Virus record (IMG/VR): IMGVR_UViG_3300046171_000044
Span: 1 to 21,062 of that record
DNA from: a virus
Reading direction: 5' to 3' (one strand)
Length of the DNA stretch: 21,062 nucleotides
A model generated the notes under the pieces. The model worked only from the letters and a program-made list of their open reading frames with translations, searched no databases and had not been told where the DNA came from. Below are positions 5,885 through 21,062 of this stretch, piece after piece. Positions within the stretch are counted from its first letter, which is position 1, and each line of letters begins with the position of its first letter. The translations under genes were made by a program, and so were the position numbers.

Positions 5885-7679
5885 TTTAAAGGATGAGGAA
5901 GAGTGGGTTCCAGTCCCACGCATAGCAAGAACAATACCATTTGGATACATGGCAGATGAGAGTGACCCCGACATACTTTTGCCAGTAGCCACAGAGTTAG
6001 ATTTACTTGAGACTGCACGAAAACATGTGAAACGCTATTCATACAGGGAGGTGGCAAATTGGTTGTCGGCAAATTCTGGAAGATACATATCACATGTTGG
6101 GCTACGCAAAAGATTAGCACATGAACGACAGCGTAAGAACCAAGCTGAAAGCCTCCGCAAGTGGGCAGAGTATGCGGAAACGGCAATCGCCAAAGCGAAA
6201 GCAATCGAAGAAACAAGAACAGGCTCCAAAGCCAACGGTTGATATTGAAGAAGTTTCATATGAAACTAGCAGCATTGAAGAACACGCTAATGTGTTGTTC
6301 AAGCCAAACGAAGGGCCACAGACCCAATTTCTGGCTGCTAGTGAACGTGAAGTTTTATACGGAGGTAGTGCCGGTGGTGGTAAAAGCTACGCCATGTTGG
6401 CAGACCCCTTGCGATATATGGGTCATCCACAGTTCAGTGGACTACTGTTGCGACACACAACAGAAGAACTGCGAGAACTGATATTTAAGTCGCAGGAGTT
6501 GTACCCGAAAATCTGGCCGGGTATTAAGTGGTCAGAACGTAAGATGCAGTGGACTGCACCATCTGGCGCAAGGTTGTGGATGTCATATCTGGATAAGATG
6601 ATGATGTCTTGCGTTATCAGGGTCTGGCATTTAGCTGGATAGGGTTTGACGAATTAACTCAGTGGGCCACACCATATGCATGGAATTACATGCGTTCTCG
6701 TCTACGGTCCACTGCACCAGACTTGCCTATCTTTATGAGGGCTACAACTAACCCCGGTGGACGGGGACATCAGTGGGTCAAGAAGATGTTTATTGACCCT
6801 GCACCGTATAACAGGACATTTGATGCAACCGACATTGAAACAGGAGAAGTACTCAAGTACCCAGCAGGACATAGCAAGGCTGGAAAGTCTCTATTTAAAA
6901 GACGGTTCATCCCAGCAAGACTTTCTGATAACCCGTACCTATCTGCAGCAGGAGACTATGAAGCCATGCTTCTCTCTCTTCCAGAGCAGCAGCGTAGGCA
7001 GCTTCTTGAAGGCGATTGGGACATCAAAGAAGGTGCAGCGTTTACTGAGTTTAATAGGGATGTTCATGTTGTGGAGCCTTTTCGTATCCCTAACAACTGG
7101 GTCAAGTTTCGTGCATGTGACTATGGTTACGGCAGTTATTCTGGTGTTATTTGGTTTGCCGTTGCGCCTGATGAGCAACTGGTTGTATATAGAGAATTGT
7201 ACGTCAGTAAAGTATTGGCAACAGACTTGGCAGATATGATATTGGATTTGGAAGCTGAAGATGGCAACATTAAGTATGGTGTTTTGGATAGCAGTCTTTG
7301 GCACAAGCGTGGCGATACTGGTCCTTCTCTTGCGGAGCAAATGATTAGCAAAGGCTGTCGCTGGAGACCATCAGACCGTAGTCGTGGTAGCCGTGTAGCA
7401 GGTAAGAACGAAATACATCGTAGACTACAGATAGACGAATTTACAGAGGAACCAAGACTTGTATTCTTTAATAGCTGTACAAATGTCATCGGTCAATTAC
7501 CGTCCATCCCGTTGGACAAAGAAAATCCAGAAGACGTTGACACAAAGTCTGAAGACCATTTGTATGACGCACTCCGGTACGGTATTATGTCCCGACCCCG
7601 GTTCTCTATTTTCGACTACGACCCGCACGGGCGACCATCGACAGGTATGCCGGTAGCAGATTCTACATTTGGATATTAA
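5841..7679 (+). CDS. terL: terminase large subunit (two frame breaks)
   Basis: This is the ATPase and nuclease of the packaging motor. Three frames join: 5841-6212, 6214-about 6596, and about 6600-7679. Repairs are one A removed near 6213 and one A added near 6596 (giving SYLDKDDDVLRYQG). The product is about 612 aa. The N-terminal part has a helix-turn-helix-like stretch (YREVANWLSANSGRYISHVG). The Walker A is GGSAGGGKS (from 6361), the Walker B IGFDEL, and the coupling motif ATTNPGG. The nuclease Asp residues are in ACDYGYG, GVLDSS and DHLYDALRYG. The start is set at ATG 5841; a TTG at 5823 would add six residues. Confidence 0.88.
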
Positions 7680-7688
7680 GGAAACATT

Positions 7689-9814
7689 ATGGCCGAAGAT
7701 GAAATGATGATTGAAGATGATGCTATCGCTCTTGAAGATACAGAGGATACTGTGGCTGAAGACGCTGAAGTATCCAACATTATTCCATTTATTATGGACC
7801 GATATCAACGGGCAGAAGACTATCGCTATCAAGATGAAGAAAGATGGCTTCGTGCTTATCGCAACTATCGTGGACTTTATGGTCCTGATGTACAATTCAC
7901 TGAAGCAGAAAAGTCTCGCATATTTATTAAGGTAACAAAAACAAAAACACTGGCTGCTTATGGTCAAATTGTTGATGTACTATTTGCTGCTAATAAATTC
8001 CCTTTGTCGGTTGACCCTACAGAACTTCCTGAAGGCGTAGTTGAAAGTGTACACTTTGACCCACAGGAACCAGAACAACTTCAGGGTGAGACAGCTTTGT
8101 CTAGTCCATATGGGTTTGCTGGAGATGGCGTAGAGTTCCCTGCTGGTGCTACTGCACAATCCTTGCAGGATAAGCTAGGTCGCTTGCAAACAAACTAGAG
8201 CCTGTAGAAGAAACTAAAAGAAGGTCCGGGTAAAACTCCTACAGCAATTACATTTAGCCCTGCTATGATTGCAGCTAAAAAGATGCAGAAGAAGATACAC
8301 GACCAGCTTGAAGAGTCTGGTGCTACTAAGCATCTGCGTAAGTCTGCATTTGAGATGGCACTGTTTGGTACAGGCGTAATGAAAGGTCCATTTGCTACGG
8401 ATAAAGAGTATCCTAATTGGAATGAAGACGGTGAACTATGACCCACTGTTTAAAACAGTTCCGCAAGTTCAGCATGTATCTGTTTGGAACTTTTATCCTG
8501 ACCCTGATGCAATAACATGGATGAAGCGCAGTATGTAATTGAACGACATAAGATGTCACGTTCACAGCTGCGTCAATCTAAAGAAGCGTCCATACTTCCG
8601 TGGTCAAGTTATTGATGAAGCAATTGCATTGGGTGAAAACTACACAAAAAAGTATTGGGAAGATGACCTTGCAGATTATGCACCAGAACATGGGATTGAA
8701 AGATTTGAAGTTCTAGAGTATTGGGGTACTATTGATACCAGTATGCTAGAAGAAAACAATGTTGATATACCGGACGAACTAAAAGAGTTTGATGAATTGC
8801 AAGCCAACATTTGGGTTTGTAATAACAAGCTACTTCGTGTCGTTCTTAATCCTTTCAAGCCAGCAAAGATACCTTATCATGCTTCTCCGTATGAGATAAA
8901 CCCATACAGTTTCTTTGGGGTAGGCATTGCAGAGAACATGGATGATACGCAGACGCTGATGAATGGCTTCATGCGTATGGCTGTGGACAACGCTGTACTA
9001 TCTGGTAACTTGATTGTAGAAGTAGACGAAACTAATTTGGTGCCGGGCAAGACCTTCACTGTATCCGGGCAAGGTATTCCGTCGTCAGGGTGGCGCACCC
9101 GGTCAGGCTATCTTTGGTACAAAGTTCCCAAATGTTTCCTCAGAGAACATGATGCTATTTGACAAGGCTCGTGTGCTGGCAGACGAAAGCACTGGCTTTC
9201 CATCATACGCACATGGTCAAACAGGCGTACAAGGTGTGGGCCGGACAGCCAGCGGTATTTCTATGTTAATGAATGCTGCTTCTGGTGGAACAAAAAATGT
9301 TATCAAGAATGTAGACGATTATCTTTTGCGTCCACTTGGTGAAGGGTTTTTCCGGTTTAATATGCAGTTTGACTTTGACCCAACTATTAAGGGCGACCTT
9401 GAAGTGAAAGCACGAGGCACAGAAAGTCTCATGGCTAACGAGGTTCGTAGTCAGAGGCTTATGCAATTCCTTGGTGTGGCAAGTAATCCTGCTTTGGCAC
9501 CATTTGCTAAGTTTCAGTATATTATTCGTGAGATTGCAAAATCACTTGACCTTGACCCCGACAAGGTTACTAACAATATGGATGAGGCTGCTCTTCAAGC
9601 TGAACTTCTCAAAGGCTTTCAAGCCCCAGCAGAAAATCAGCAGCAACCACCGGCTGGCGTTGACCCAACAGACCCAACTGGTGCAGGGGGCGGTACAATT
9701 GGCGTAGGACAAGCACCTGTGCCGGGAGAGCAAGGATTTAGTGCAAATGGACAAGGAACTACTCAGCAAGTTGAAGCCGCTGGTCAACAGCAAGCAGTGG
9801 CCCCACTTCAGTAA
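7689..9814 (+). CDS. portal protein (six frame breaks)
   Basis: This dodecameric ring protein forms the DNA entry vertex. AAGGAAAC precedes the ATG. Segments in order: acidic N-terminus, RAYRNYRGLYGPDVQFTEAE, FIKVTKTKTLAAYGQIVDVL, FSPAMIAAKKMQKKIHDQLE, SVWNFYPDPDA, IERHKMSRSQLRQ, NPYSFFGVGIAENMDDTQTL, RRQGGAPGQAIFGTKFPN, GVGRTASGISMLMNAASG and a Gln/Pro/Gly-rich C-terminus. Together they make about 708 aa, normal for portals of short-tailed phages. Breaks lie near 8189, 8213, 8436, 8512, 8578 and 9079, each fixable by one (or two) bases. The order after TerL and before scaffold/capsid supports the identity. Confidence 0.82.
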
Positions 9815-16865: not shown

Positions 16866-18374
16866 ATGGCTGATGAAGCGCAACTCAGTCCGTATGTGTT
16901 TGCCTGTGAAGGTGGCCTTGTTCTTGACCAGCCGACATTCAAAATGTCTCCCGGCATGGCTCTTGAACTAGAAAACTTTGAGCCAGATACACGTGGTGGA
17001 TACAGACGTATTAATGGCTACCTAAAATGGAATAGCAATATTGTTCCGCAGACTGCCAGTTCTACTGAAAAAGTGTTGATGTCTGCGTACTTTAACAGTA
17101 AGGTTATTGCAGCACGAGGTGAGAAAGTATTTGAAGTAGCTAGTGGTAGCGGTTCATGGTCAGAGATTGATACAGGACGTACTAGTGCTGGTAAGTATAC
17201 ACACCATCGTTATAATCTAGGTGGCACAGAACATATTGTTTGGGCTGACGGTGCCAACCACGCTACCAAATATGATGGCACTACAGTAACAGACCTTAAT
17301 GCTACAGGCGCACCGGCTAACCCAAAGTTTGTGACAGGTTTTAAAGACGCACTATTCTTTGCAGGACATACTTCTAACAAAGAAGAGATTATCTTTACTG
17401 CACCCTTTACCGACAGTGACTTTAGTACAGCTAATGGTGCAGGTAGTCTTCGCATTGACAGTCAAGTAACAGCACTGTTTCCGTTTCGTAACGAACTGAT
17501 TATATTTGGCGAAGAACGTATATACAGACTGACAGGTAACACAGTTGCAGATTTTGTACTCCAACCAATTACAAGAGATATCGGATGCCTTAACGGCTTT
17601 ACTGTCCAAGAACTTGCCGGTGACATCATATTCCTTGGGCGAGATGGTCTTCGCACCGTTGCAGGTACCGAAAGAATTAATGATGTTGAACTGGGAACTA
17701 TATCAGGGAATATCAAAGAACTGTTTGATGACACTGACGTAGACGAATTTGAAAGCATTGTAGTACCGGGTAAGACCCAATACCGTTTGTTCCGTGTAAA
17801 TACAACGGCAGATACACTAGCGACAACAAAAGGTATTATTGCAGTACGTAAACAGCAGGGCTTTGAGTTTGCCACCACAAAAGGTATTCAGCCTTCGTCC
17901 ACCGACTTTTTTACAACTCAAGGTGAGACATTTGTAATACACGGTGGCTTTGACGGTTATGTGTACAGGCAGGAACAAGGCAACACATTTGACGGCACAA
18001 ACATTGTGGGGCGATATCGTTCACCTGATATGACAATGGGAGATGCTGGTATTCGCAAGAACTTCCAGCGAGTAATTATTAACTACTCACCAACTGGTAC
18101 AATCAACTCAGACCTGTTCTTGAGATATGACTATGAGTCACCAGATGCAGCCAGACCAGCCGCATATCCATTTGACTCTACAAAGGTTGTAGCACTATAT
18201 GGAACGTCACAGTATGGCACCGCTACATACGGTGGTCAGTCAAACCCACTCGTTAGACAGCCTGTAGAGGGTAGTGGCTTTGCTGTAGCCATGCGAGTTG
18301 TAGATAATGCTGAGTCATTCCCATACACACTCAAGGGCTTTCAGCTAGAATTTGATGCAGGAGCAAGACGCTAA
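16866..18374 (+). CDS. tail nozzle / stabilisation protein, P22 gp10-like (502 aa)
   Basis: The protein is all-beta with repeated short strands and turns, as expected for a beta-propeller. It includes a VTALFPFRNELIIFGEERIY segment followed by RLTG that resembles the 'W-R-D-F-I-V-C-F-G-S-x-x-I-E-Y-F-S-L-T-G' part of P22 gp10. It ends with a 'KGFQLEFDAGARR' type strand, like the IGFKLRVI region of gp10. Length is close to gp10 (472 aa). In P22-like and T7-like tails this protein sits below the adaptor ring and carries fibres. The gene begins 4 bases after the adaptor and its stop overlaps the fibre ATG (TAATG). No frame break is seen. Confidence 0.72.
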   Translation: MADEAQLSPYVFACEGGLVLDQPTFKMSPGMALELENFEPDTRGGYRRINGYLKWNSNIVPQTASSTEKVLMSAYFNSKVIAARGEKVFEVASGSGSWSEIDTGRTSAGKYTHHRYNLGGTEHIVWADGANHATKYDGTTVTDLNATGAPANPKFVTGFKDALFFAGHTSNKEEIIFTAPFTDSDFSTANGAGSLRIDSQVTALFPFRNELIIFGEERIYRLTGNTVADFVLQPITRDIGCLNGFTVQELAGDIIFLGRDGLRTVAGTERINDVELGTISGNIKELFDDTDVDEFESIVVPGKTQYRLFRVNTTADTLATTKGIIAVRKQQGFEFATTKGIQPSSTDFFTTQGETFVIHGGFDGYVYRQEQGNTFDGTNIVGRYRSPDMTMGDAGIRKNFQRVIINYSPTGTINSDLFLRYDYESPDAARPAAYPFDSTKVVALYGTSQYGTATYGGQSNPLVRQPVEGSGFAVAMRVVDNAESFPYTLKGFQLEFDAGARR

Positions 18375-20173
18375 TGGCAGGATATAATAGACAGTCAACG
18401 TATACTGACGGCGACGTTATTAATGCGTCCGACAGTAATGACGAATTTGACCAGCTTCTTGCTGCGTTTAATAATAGCAGTGGACACAAACACGATGGCA
18501 CAGCAGCCGAAGGTCCAGTCATTGGGCTGATTGGTGACCCCGGCGTTACCACTCCAATTAACAAAGTTGTTGTAGATGACACTAACAATCGGGTTGGTGT
18601 TTTTGTAGATGTGTCTGGTAGCACGACTGAACAGGTACGTTTTCAGGATGGTGTAATTGTACCTGTCACTGACAACGACATTGACTTGGGTACTAGTAGC
18701 CTTGAGTTCAAAGACCTGTTCCTTGATGGTACAGCAACCATTGACACGTTGCAGGTGGACGAGAGTGCCACTATTACTGCCAACCTGACTGTCAATGGCA
18801 ATACCACACTTGGTAATGCTGCCAGTGACACAGTGACCATTACGGCTGATGTTGCCTCTAACATCATTCCTTCCGCTGACGATACACACGACTTGGGTGC
18901 CTCTGGTGCCGAATGGAAAGACCTGTACATTGATGGTGTTGCATATGTAGATAGCATTGCGATGCCAACTACAACTGTAACGGACATTCTTGATGAAGAT
19001 AACATGGCATCCGACAGTGCTACTGCGCTGGTTACACAACAGTCTATCAAGGCTTATGTTGACGCACAACTCACAGCCCAAGACCTCGACTTCTCTGCAG
19101 ACACAGGTGGAGCATTATCTATCGACCTTGACAGCGAGAGTCTCACGCTTACAGGTGGCACAGGCATTGATACTAGTGGTTCAAGTAATACTGTTACTTT
19201 TGCTATTGATAGCACCGTAGCTACGCTGACAGGTTCGCAGACACTTACTAACAAGACAATTGATGTAGACAACAACACTGTCTCCAATATTGAAGTAGAC
19301 AACCTCAAGTCTGGTGTGCTTGATACTGACTTGTCAAGTGTGGCTGGCACAGATACGACGCTGGCATCTGCAAAAGCCATTAAGACCTACGTGGATGCAC
19401 AGATAACTGCGCAGGACTTGGACTTCCAAGCTGACAGCGGTGGTGCGCTGGCTATTGACCTAGACAGTGAAACCATGACCTTCACGGGTGGCACGGGCAT
19501 TGATACCAGCGGCTCTGGCAATGCTGTGACCTTTGCTATAGACAGCACTGTAGCCACCCTCGCTGGTACGCAGACGCTTACAAATAAAACACTGACCACT
19601 CCGGTTATTTCGTCCATAAGCAACACTGGTACTCTTACCCTGCCAACTAGCACTGACACACTTGTAGGTCGTGCCACCACAGATACACTTACAAATAAAA
19701 CCTTGACAAGTGCTGTGCTAAACGGTACAATAAGTGGAACGTCCATTAAAGATGAAGACAATATGTCTTCTGACAGTGCAAGTCATCTTGCAACCCAACA
19801 GTCAATAAAAGCCTACGTAGATAGTCAAGTTACTGCACAAGACTTGGACTTTCAGGGTGACAGTGGTGGCGCATTAAGCATTGACCTTGACAGCGAGACA
19901 CTGGACATTGCCGGTGGCACAGGTATTGACACTTCAGGTTCTGGTAACACGCTTACTGTTGCTATTGATAACACTGTCACAACTCTGACCGGCACACAAA
20001 CCTTGACTAACAAAACACTGACTAGCCCGACAATTAATGGTGGGTCACTGTCCAGTGCTGTTACTACCACAACACAGGCTGCTGGCACTAGCAACACAAC
20101 TATTGCTACGACTGCGTTTGCACAGACAGCAGCCGCTGACCAAGCTGTGGCATTGGCAATTGCTCTGGGCTGA
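18374..20173 (+). CDS. repeat-rich tail fibre protein (599 aa)
   Basis: The N-terminus (MAGYNRQSTYTDGDVINASD) is likely the attachment part. It is followed by two DLGTSSLEFKDLFLDG-type units (about 108-122 and 174-188) and then three long repeats of about 80-86 residues. Each long repeat contains IKAYVDxQ, TAQDLDF, GGTGIDTSGS and TLTNKT. The C-terminus is a Thr/Ala-rich stretch. Extended beta repeats with Gly/Ser/Thr/Asp are typical of trimeric fibres. TLTNKT-type repeats are known from phage fibres, where they form regular shafts. The C-terminus ends without an obvious receptor domain, so receptor binding may lie in later proteins. Confidence 0.82.
   Translation: MAGYNRQSTYTDGDVINASDSNDEFDQLLAAFNNSSGHKHDGTAAEGPVIGLIGDPGVTTPINKVVVDDTNNRVGVFVDVSGSTTEQVRFQDGVIVPVTDNDIDLGTSSLEFKDLFLDGTATIDTLQVDESATITANLTVNGNTTLGNAASDTVTITADVASNIIPSADDTHDLGASGAEWKDLYIDGVAYVDSIAMPTTTVTDILDEDNMASDSATALVTQQSIKAYVDAQLTAQDLDFSADTGGALSIDLDSESLTLTGGTGIDTSGSSNTVTFAIDSTVATLTGSQTLTNKTIDVDNNTVSNIEVDNLKSGVLDTDLSSVAGTDTTLASAKAIKTYVDAQITAQDLDFQADSGGALAIDLDSETMTFTGGTGIDTSGSGNAVTFAIDSTVATLAGTQTLTNKTLTTPVISSISNTGTLTLPTSTDTLVGRATTDTLTNKTLTSAVLNGTISGTSIKDEDNMSSDSASHLATQQSIKAYVDSQVTAQDLDFQGDSGGALSIDLDSETLDIAGGTGIDTSGSGNTLTVAIDNTVTTLTGTQTLTNKTLTSPTINGGSLSSAVTTTTQAAGTSNTTIATTAFAQTAAADQAVALAIALG
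19004..20017 (+). repeat. three ~80-86-residue fibre shaft repeats
   Basis: Repeat 1 is 19004-19258, repeat 2 is 19355-19591 and repeat 3 is 19763-20017. All read from a Ser/Ala-rich start through IKAYVDAQ, QDLDF, GGALSIDLDSE, GGTGIDTSGS and a final TLTNKT. A shorter TLTNKT unit lies at about 19680-19700. The protein repeats are close but the codons differ widely, so they are not recent copies. Confidence 0.85.
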
Positions 20174-20181
20174 GTTTATTA

Positions 20182-20610
20182 ATGAAAACAAAGACTTGCA
20201 AGACATGCGGCGTAACTAAGTCTTACGATGAGTTTCCCGATGGGCGATTATACCATGATGGAAAACGTCCAAATTGTATAGATTGTAGGCGCAAATATGA
20301 AAGAGAGTCATACCACAAGAATAAACATAAAAAACCATATGTTTATGAAGTAGATAAAGATATAAAATTAAAAAAAGCGTATGGCATTAGCTATCAGGAA
20401 TACCTAAAAATTTTAGAAATGCAACAAAATAGCTGTGCTATATGTGGCATAAGTCAGGAAGATGTCTCTAGAGCATTTGCAGTAGACCATTGTCATGGTA
20501 CTGGAAAAATCAGAGGATTACTCTGCAGTAATTGTAATACAGGAATAGGTAATCTAAGAGATGATATTGACTTGTTAGAAAGAGCAATTGAATATCTAAA
20601 AAACGCTTGA
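20182..20610 (+). CDS. HNH endonuclease, recombination endonuclease VII-like (142 aa)
   Basis: The N-terminal zinc ribbon has CKTCGVTKSYDEF and later CIDCRRKYERE. A basic linker follows. The C-terminal endonuclease VII-type domain shows YGISYQEYLKILEMQQNSCA, CxxC (CAIC), AVDHCHGTGKIRGLLCSNCN with the catalytic DH and the second CxxC, and GNLRDDIDLLERAIEYL. Such enzymes in tail regions are usually free-standing homing endonucleases. The gene is visibly more A+T-rich than the fibre genes on both sides and interrupts them, which suggests recent insertion. No good Shine-Dalgarno sequence is present before ATG 20182. The stop (20608-20610) lies inside the -35 box of promoter P3. Confidence 0.9.
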   Translation: MKTKTCKTCGVTKSYDEFPDGRLYHDGKRPNCIDCRRKYERESYHKNKHKKPYVYEVDKDIKLKKAYGISYQEYLKILEMQQNSCAICGISQEDVSRAFAVDHCHGTGKIRGLLCSNCNTGIGNLRDDIDLLERAIEYLKNA

Positions 20611-20635
20611 CAAGTGAATGATAATCTGGTATAAT
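20607..20635 (+). promoter_or_regulatory. consensus sigma-70 promoter (P3) with -10 palindrome
   Basis: TTGACA (20607-20612), 17-base spacer, TATAAT (20630-20635), with TG before the -10: a full consensus promoter. The TTGACA overlaps the HNH stop codon. The -10 lies within GGTATAATTATACC (20628-20641), a perfect 14-base palindrome that could be an operator. It serves the gene at 20657. Confidence 0.85.
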
Positions 20636-20656
20636 TATACCGAAATGGAGTAATAA

Positions 20657-20986
20657 ATGGCAAACGCATTTAAACTCGTTACTGACACTGGTGTAGGCAC
20701 ATCTGCTGCCACTGTACACACCGGGGCATCAGCAACCGAAACCACCATCATTGGCCTCACTGTTGCCAACATCGTGACCTCACAGATTGAGGTAGATGTG
20801 CAGATTGAGAACAATGACGGCGACAACGTATATCTTATCAAGGCTGCACCTATTCCGGTAGGTAGTAGCCTTGTTGTCGTTGGGGGTGAGCAGAAGGTTG
20901 TCCTGAATGCAAGTGACGTTTTGAAGGTTACGAGCAACACAGCAAGTTCTGCTGACGTGGCTCTGTCCATCTTGGAGATTACCTAA
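20657..20986 (+). CDS. small beta-rich tail-associated protein (109 aa)
   Basis: GGAG at 20647-20650 precedes the ATG by six bases, and promoter P3 lies just upstream. The product is all-beta: MANAFKLVTDTGVGTSAATV, then TTIIGLTVANIVTSQIEVDV, IPVGSSLVVVGGEQKVVLNA and DVLKVTSNTASSADVALSIL. The order of strands and the IPxGSSL and A-S-D-x-L-x-V-T-S pattern resemble small phage tail or baseplate beta-sandwich proteins, and also the gene at 2283-2642. There is no enzyme motif. The stop shares a base with the next ATG (TAATG). Confidence 0.8.
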   Translation: MANAFKLVTDTGVGTSAATVHTGASATETTIIGLTVANIVTSQIEVDVQIENNDGDNVYLIKAAPIPVGSSLVVVGGEQKVVLNASDVLKVTSNTASSADVALSILEIT

Positions 20987-21062
20987 TGGCCTATATCGGT
21001 GCTGGCATCTCACGGTTTAACACCGCTGACGAACTGACTGTCACTGGCGATGCCCAGATTGA
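20986..21062 (+). CDS. start of next tail/fibre-type gene (partial)
   Basis: Only the first 25 codons are in the window: MAYIGAGISRFNTADELTVT, then GDAQI. The M-x-Y-I-G start and the A-D-E-L-T-V-T-G-D pattern are often seen at the start of phage fibre or receptor-binding proteins that begin with a short attachment motif. The rest is cut by the window edge, so the function stays open. Translation is coupled to the preceding gene by TAATG. Confidence 0.65.
   Translation, partial: MAYIGAGISRFNTADELTVTGDAQI

Follow-up and report, generated by a model that had tools for sequence, protein, structure and literature searches.

Endonucleases of the DHHRN (Endonuclease VII motif) type are recognised by the residues CX2-4C, DHxH, R, CX2C and N, as set out in the part of PMC6083498 accessible to us. 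According to the same part of that source, the motif lies at the C terminus in most sequences of the endonuclease clade and at the N terminus in most of the resolvase clade. F-CphI, the founder of the DHHRN homing endonucleases, and the restriction enzyme Hpy99I both carry the C-terminal form with CxxC, DHxH, R, CxxC and N (PMC6083498, same part). Endonuclease genes also stand between conserved genes of phage T4, with a promoter of the downstream gene inside them or just past their 3' end. Examples include mobE, which is upstream of the nrdB promoter, and segG, which has the gene 32 promoters inside it (PMC2988022, in the excerpt available). The HMO-2011-type marine phages, to which the locus described here is related, are described as an abundant group in the accessible text of PMC6918029.

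Here we analyse a promoter between the tail-fibre gene and a structural gene of such a phage, next to a gene for an Endonuclease VII-type nuclease. A literature search that covered search listings found no published account of this promoter, and the word "promoter" is absent from the portions available of two papers on HMO-2011-type phages (PMC9038755; PMC6918029). We read it, with a probability of roughly 0.87, as an internal promoter that already stood in the late (virion) gene block of HMO-2011-like marine phages before the nuclease arrived, that is present in an all-or-none manner and that is most likely read by a host sigma-70-type RNA polymerase. The endonuclease gene beside it would be a later and separable guest.

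The junction and its genes

The window, which is the whole stretch of DNA that was analysed, is an entire viral contig of 21,062 bases. Judged by its gene order and proteins, which are HMO-2011-like, it is a contig of an HMO-2011-like phage. Along the plus strand, a tail-fibre gene is followed by a 142-aa Endonuclease VII-family gene, the promoter and a 109-aa gene. The features are as follows.

18374 to 20173, plus strand: tail-fibre gene, an open reading frame ending in ...AIALG and a stop (PHROG 892 tail fiber, 3.8e-41)
20170 to 20596, plus strand: stretch of the window with no counterpart in L125, the relative with the empty site (about 427 nt vs 1 nt by BLAST boundaries)
20182 to 20610, plus strand: free-standing Endonuclease VII-type endonuclease gene, 142 aa (open reading frame; PF02945)
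20607 to 20612, plus strand: -35 hexamer TTGACA, which holds the endonuclease TGA stop (20608-20610); the same hexamer stands in the 62 promoter-bearing junctions of 163
20627 to 20629, plus strand: extended -10 element TGG (from the sequence)
20628 to 20641, no strand: 14-base palindrome GGTATAATTATACC covering the -10, overlapping a minus-strand TTGCCA-18-TATAAT
20630 to 20635, plus strand: -10 hexamer TATAAT (from the sequence)
20647 to 20650, plus strand: Shine-Dalgarno-like GGAG of the downstream gene (from the sequence)
20657 to 20986, plus strand: 109-aa gene that follows the promoter (all-beta model; structural-protein annotation in homologs)

The original prediction had described a perfect TTGACA-17-TATAAT promoter with its -35 on the nuclease stop codon, and this description is accurate. 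The endonuclease reading frame ends in ...GCT TGA, its TGA falls within TTGACA, and a 17-bp spacer leads to TATAAT. It is the sole perfect promoter in the 21 kb, and 100 dinucleotide shuffles of the window gave an expectation of 0.00 such sites. The T and the G of the extended -10 each occur in 70% of 23 non-redundant junction promoters. Inside the tail-fibre gene, the plus strand carries an 11/12 site, TTGACA-17-TACAAT at 19703-19731, that recurs in HMO-2011 and several relatives; it is probably coding sequence and not a promoter. The tail-fibre gene itself (18374-20173) has internal repeats that resemble one another at about 70%, and close relatives differ in it in mosaic fashion.

Homologs of the 109-aa protein are annotated as structural proteins in most of the listed records. 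Its predicted model is confident and all-beta (pLDDT 95). Among predicted viral structures, the nearest are virion structural proteins or proteins that are unnamed or uncharacterized, and matches to the PDB are weak, the best (4.7e-4) being tail fibres of phage 7-7-1. A distant paralog of this protein, with 26% identity over 84 aa, is encoded on the plus strand at 2283-2642, about 18 kb upstream, and was also recovered by profile search. Two copies of a gene of this type are likewise found in HMO-2011, CRP-9 and CRP-13.

The nuclease had been labelled HNH. More exactly, the protein belongs to the Endonuclease VII family (PF02945, 6.1e-27, match to residues 62-141 of 142) and has DHxH...R...N residues. 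Its C-terminal motif is CxxC-DHxH-R-CxxC-N, and the N terminus carries CxxC/CxxC. All DHHRN residues can be assigned, namely C85xxC88, DHCH at 102-105, R111, C115xxC118 and N119, and they align with those of Hpy99I. Hpy99I (3fc3) is also the best match among solved structures (1.1e-9). By its position at the C terminus, the motif puts the protein in the endonuclease clade. As is typical of a free-standing homing endonuclease gene, it can be present or absent between two genes that are themselves conserved, and the relatives L125/L130, L294 and L261 have the site empty. No Rfam family, group I introns included, reaches threshold in the window. The nuclease may well have spread by homing.

Promoter state and endonuclease gene across related junctions

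Junctions were collected by three protein-similarity fetches that kept the best 80 of 382, 589 and 568 loci, the first of which drew IMG/VR loci through the downstream protein of the window (best 80 of 382). Pooled, they gave 240 loci, five of them too short, and 163 distinct junctions. TTGACA-17-TATAAT, with 12/12 bases and exactly 17 bp, is found in 62 of the 163; this share is biased and is no population estimate, as the three queries are proteins of phages that carry the promoter (the promoter pattern had turned up two of them) and each fetch kept only its best 80 loci. A tilt of the sample to perfect over imperfect promoters is possible, yet it is not built into the design. Among the remaining 101 junctions none reaches 11/12, two score 10 and 99 score 7-9, and these low scores track the shuffle background. 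The 12 consensus bases and the 17-bp spacing are intact in 62/62 promoter-bearing junctions, which have 43 different spacers. For the 23 non-redundant promoters (<75% identity), the mean pairwise difference is 0.00 of 12 hexamer positions vs 8.55 of 17 spacer positions. Hexamers kept at a 16-18 bp spacing while the spacer drifts are what a sigma-70-type promoter is expected to show.

The same division is seen beyond the junction. In a whole-record search of 17 further contigs, 15/15 with a promoterless junction (several are fragments) hold no perfect promoter, and both promoter-bearing contigs hold two each. All 32 contigs of another set, chosen for carrying the promoter, hold at least one. 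Among fifteen named phage genomes that were also searched, the perfect promoter stands at this junction in HMO-2011 alone. The downstream gene is present without the promoter in CRP-9 and CRP-13; the other 12 hold no close copy of that gene. Because CRP-9, CRP-13 and the 15 promoterless-junction contigs go without it, the promoter module is dispensable in many phages. On sequence grounds, the junction promoter is an independent, strictly conserved internal promoter that is all-or-none in the examined set. As a side observation, the HTVC033P record (MZ892993) has twelve TTGACA-17-TATAAT sites with at most one mismatch; the counts in the 14 remaining named genomes run from 0 to 3.

The promoter might have come with, or arisen from, the inserted nuclease and so restored expression of the downstream gene, which was one of two origins proposed at the outset. 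Nuclease and promoter do abut, with the stop inside the -35. The structural-protein-gathered sets have the nuclease in 3/240 loci, which are two distinct junctions, and both carry the promoter. There is also a parallel in T4, where a promoter lies between mobE and nrdB (PMC2988022, in the excerpt available). The relatives without the gene tell otherwise. L125, L126, L130 and L135 have no nuclease gene and keep the promoter and the 14-base palindrome, and the tail-fibre genes of these nuclease-free relatives are 93-98% identical to that of the window. L125 is the cleanest empty site: positions 18374-20169 are 98.3% identical (1796 nt) and positions 20597-21062 94.4%, the nuclease stretch alone being missing. 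L130 has the identical 29-bp promoter between flanks of 92.7% and 94.6% identity. A second, separate pair repeats the result with another promoter. L202 carries the closest nuclease outside the window's own junction (87% identical), and it shares an identical 29-bp promoter, TTGACAACCACGTAAAAATATGGTATAAT, with nuclease-free L294, their flanks being about 80% alike. L294 reads GGG TAG TTGACA where L202 reads AAT AGT TGA, and in L202 as in the window the last bases of the nuclease reading frame are shared with the resident promoter, the TGA coming from TTGACA. HMO-2011, too, has the perfect promoter at this junction with no nuclease gene between. In L210 a 49% identical nuclease lies between promoter and structural gene, and its TAA stop is part of GGAGTAA. 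That string is the Shine-Dalgarno stretch of the resident gene, seen also in L261, a junction of the same kind without nuclease that is 90.3% identical to L210 over 2279 columns upstream and 68.7% downstream.

The nuclease also occurs without the promoter. Of 127 distinct junction rows (5 are weaker second matches), 21 carry the endonuclease. The promoter follows the nuclease in the window/L015 and L202 and precedes it in L210. In the other 18 of the 21, the best score in the 700 nt before the structural gene, nuclease gene included, is 9 (14 rows) or 10 (4 rows) of 12. On these rows the endonuclease does not need the promoter. An origin of the promoter with the insert is very improbable given the empty sites and these 18 junctions. 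The idea that the promoter restores expression after insertion is unsupported for the same reasons, and there is no terminator-like site on the plus strand of the nuclease gene or the intergenic space. It had further been suggested that the promoter marks the insertion target; this is unneeded, since the nuclease is also found in junctions that lack the promoter, and in L210 it follows the promoter instead of preceding it. The alternative origin offered there, a promoter that predates the insert, is the one borne out by the proposed comparison with nuclease-free relatives. Promoter first and nuclease later is the order that the empty sites set, as read from these alignments.

A structural-protein tree was built from 118 rows and 114 columns, with 5 weaker second hits and 4 short proteins left out; many of its forks are unresolved and L343 is on a very long branch. 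Even on well-supported branches only, the three rows with both promoter and nuclease need 3 separate changes. Promoter state takes 9 changes over all rows of this tree and 4 within the first-fetch rows, and the endonuclease takes 6. Tree and alignment together place the nuclease next to such promoters in three lineages that are separate from one another: it stands ahead of the -35 in two and past the promoter in the third. The position of the upstream stop was counted in 61 junctions with the promoter, of which the promoter pattern had supplied 48. It is inside the -35 in 11, namely 2 endonuclease and 9 long tail-fibre reading frames, and starts 3 to 15 nt ahead of the -35 in the remaining 50. 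Tail-fibre reading frames also stop inside the -35, and therefore the stop overlap is no mark of insertion.

The palindrome over the -10 element

A 14-base palindrome over the -10 had also been predicted, and GGTATAATTATACC is present at 20628-20641. The window holds 3 perfect palindromes of at least 14 bases vs 1.34 expected under a dinucleotide Markov model, and 75 of 100 random runs have at least one, so the palindrome alone is at chance level. The other two are at 6252-6267 (16 bases) and 8044-8057 (14 bases). Among the 62 junction promoters the full palindrome is kept in 5, 12 bases of it in 12, 10 bases in 13, and 8 or fewer in 32. In IMG/VR stretches with GGTATAATTATACC, a -35-like hexamer (at least 4/6) is found at 17 bp in 28 of 187 strand-sites vs 3 to 20 at other distances from 10 to 30. 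As a -35-like hexamer tends to stand 17 bp away, GGTATAATTATACC is often a -10, and the palindrome appears to be mostly a sequence extension of that element. A role as an RNA hairpin was rejected: the predicted start (about 20642) comes after the palindrome, and folding does not surpass that of shuffled sequences (z -0.81).

The palindrome could instead be an operator at which a phage regulator, for example a lysogeny repressor, keeps the virion genes off. The core GTATAATTATAC (12 bases) occurs exactly twice in the 55 kb of HMO-2011, a phage with an integrase gene, and only at its two perfect promoters; among the results, this repeat alone favours a regulator. The place of the palindrome is also less random than its presence: TATAATTATA is found more often at junction promoters (9/23 of the non-redundant protein-gathered set; 13/26 in a set that was mostly pattern-selected) than at the remaining perfect promoters of the examined loci (7/157). 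Against an operator, the full palindrome is found in just 5/62 junction promoters, it is single-copy in the window, and 21 kb of sequence should hold a 14-base palindrome by chance. Nor does any further listed promoter-like site in 16 other contigs repeat the extension of the junction, the overlapping minus-strand site aside. We regard an operator as quite unlikely; of the phages compared, only HMO-2011 repeats the palindrome, and a phage-wide operator is doubtful.

Published bidirectional promoters are based on symmetric -10 elements (PMC12825309; PMC10268837; in the parts accessible), and here antisense RNA would run into the nuclease and tail-fibre genes. The minus-strand TTGCCA-18-TATAAT (11/12) fits this. 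A reverse -35, however, is not enriched among the 13 non-redundant promoters with TATAATTATA, where 1, 1 and 2 reach 4/6 at 16, 17 and 18 bp vs 0 to 4 elsewhere, and the reverse TTGCCA coincides with the start region, being the complement of ATGGCAA. A bidirectional promoter is thus unlikely here, although the symmetric -10 of the window could alone fire weakly.

The endonuclease itself might bind the palindrome and repress the promoter, much as I-TevI does at its operator; autorepression by I-TevI is a published precedent (PMC2988022, same excerpt). Palindrome-bearing relatives without the nuclease speak against such control, as does L202, whose 87% identical nuclease faces a promoter with GGTATAATTATCG in place of the palindrome. 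Control of the promoter by the endonuclease, which the original prediction had raised, is accordingly most improbable.

A probable resident late promoter compared with known systems

HMO-2011 has exactly two perfect promoters. One is at the tail-fibre/structural junction; the other lies 21.6 kb upstream, close to where the same leftward gene block begins. The latter, at 53368-53396 on the minus strand of GU557055, has the same TATAATTATACT extension. At both, TATAAT is followed by the same TATAC, a shared feature that counts against a pure host-promoter reading, which does not require such a repeat. T7-type RNA polymerase (PF00940) was found in 0/23 records, promoter-bearing and promoterless, some of them fragments, and the same search gave a match in phage EcoDS1 as positive control. 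A phage RNA polymerase as the explanation of promoter loss was rejected on this result. Integrase (6/23 records) and DNA polymerase A (18/23) were rejected as correlates of promoter state, both being present in records of both kinds.

In the reading that we prefer, a resident promoter joined later by a guest gene, transcription would re-start at the 109-aa structural gene after the tail-fibre gene, presumably through the host enzyme. The module would be either letter-perfect TTGACA-17-TATAAT or missing. The Endonuclease VII-type gene would have entered between the tail-fibre stop and the -35, its reading frame running into resident DNA so that TTGACA doubles as the stop codon. A guest gene may in this way enter a compact phage operon with little disruption, sparing the promoter that is already there and drawing its own stop from the -35. 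More tentatively, the junction may be a swappable promoter cassette under unusually absolute selection, at which late-gene re-initiation would tolerate no mismatch (because the polymerase is phage-modified, competition is extreme or the site serves two uses). It would then be a modular hot spot that exchanges promoter and Endonuclease VII genes independently, the guest gene taking its stop from the adjoining control element. All-or-none perfection in a marine phage group described as abundant offers a natural test of the forces that hold the full consensus of a bacterial-type promoter in place, and the question can be put to the test in HMO-2011, a named phage whose host is also named.

The window shares with HMO-2011 and HMO-2011-type phages the order of tail fibre and structural protein, and with HMO-2011 a perfect promoter in the same place. 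Unlike the window, HMO-2011 and CRP-9 have no gene between the tail-fibre and structural genes. The bidirectional promoters of E. coli and Salmonella likewise have a palindromic TATAATTATA over a symmetric -10, whereas the junction promoters, predicted from sequence, lack a conserved reverse -35. F-CphI has the same C-terminal motif as the window nuclease and differs in that it adjoins an intron-containing psbA gene (PMC6083498, part accessible). Phage EcoDS1 is annotated with a similar layout: its gene 13.5 (endonuclease VII) separates gene 13 from gene 14 and runs into the start of the latter. The nearest published arrangements that we found, in the excerpt of PMC2988022 available, are those of mobE and segG in T4. 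Compared with these, the window promoter predates its insert, as three with/without pairs indicate, is a perfect host-type consensus and provides the stop codon from its -35, and the adjoining nuclease is of the Endonuclease VII type with putative homing.
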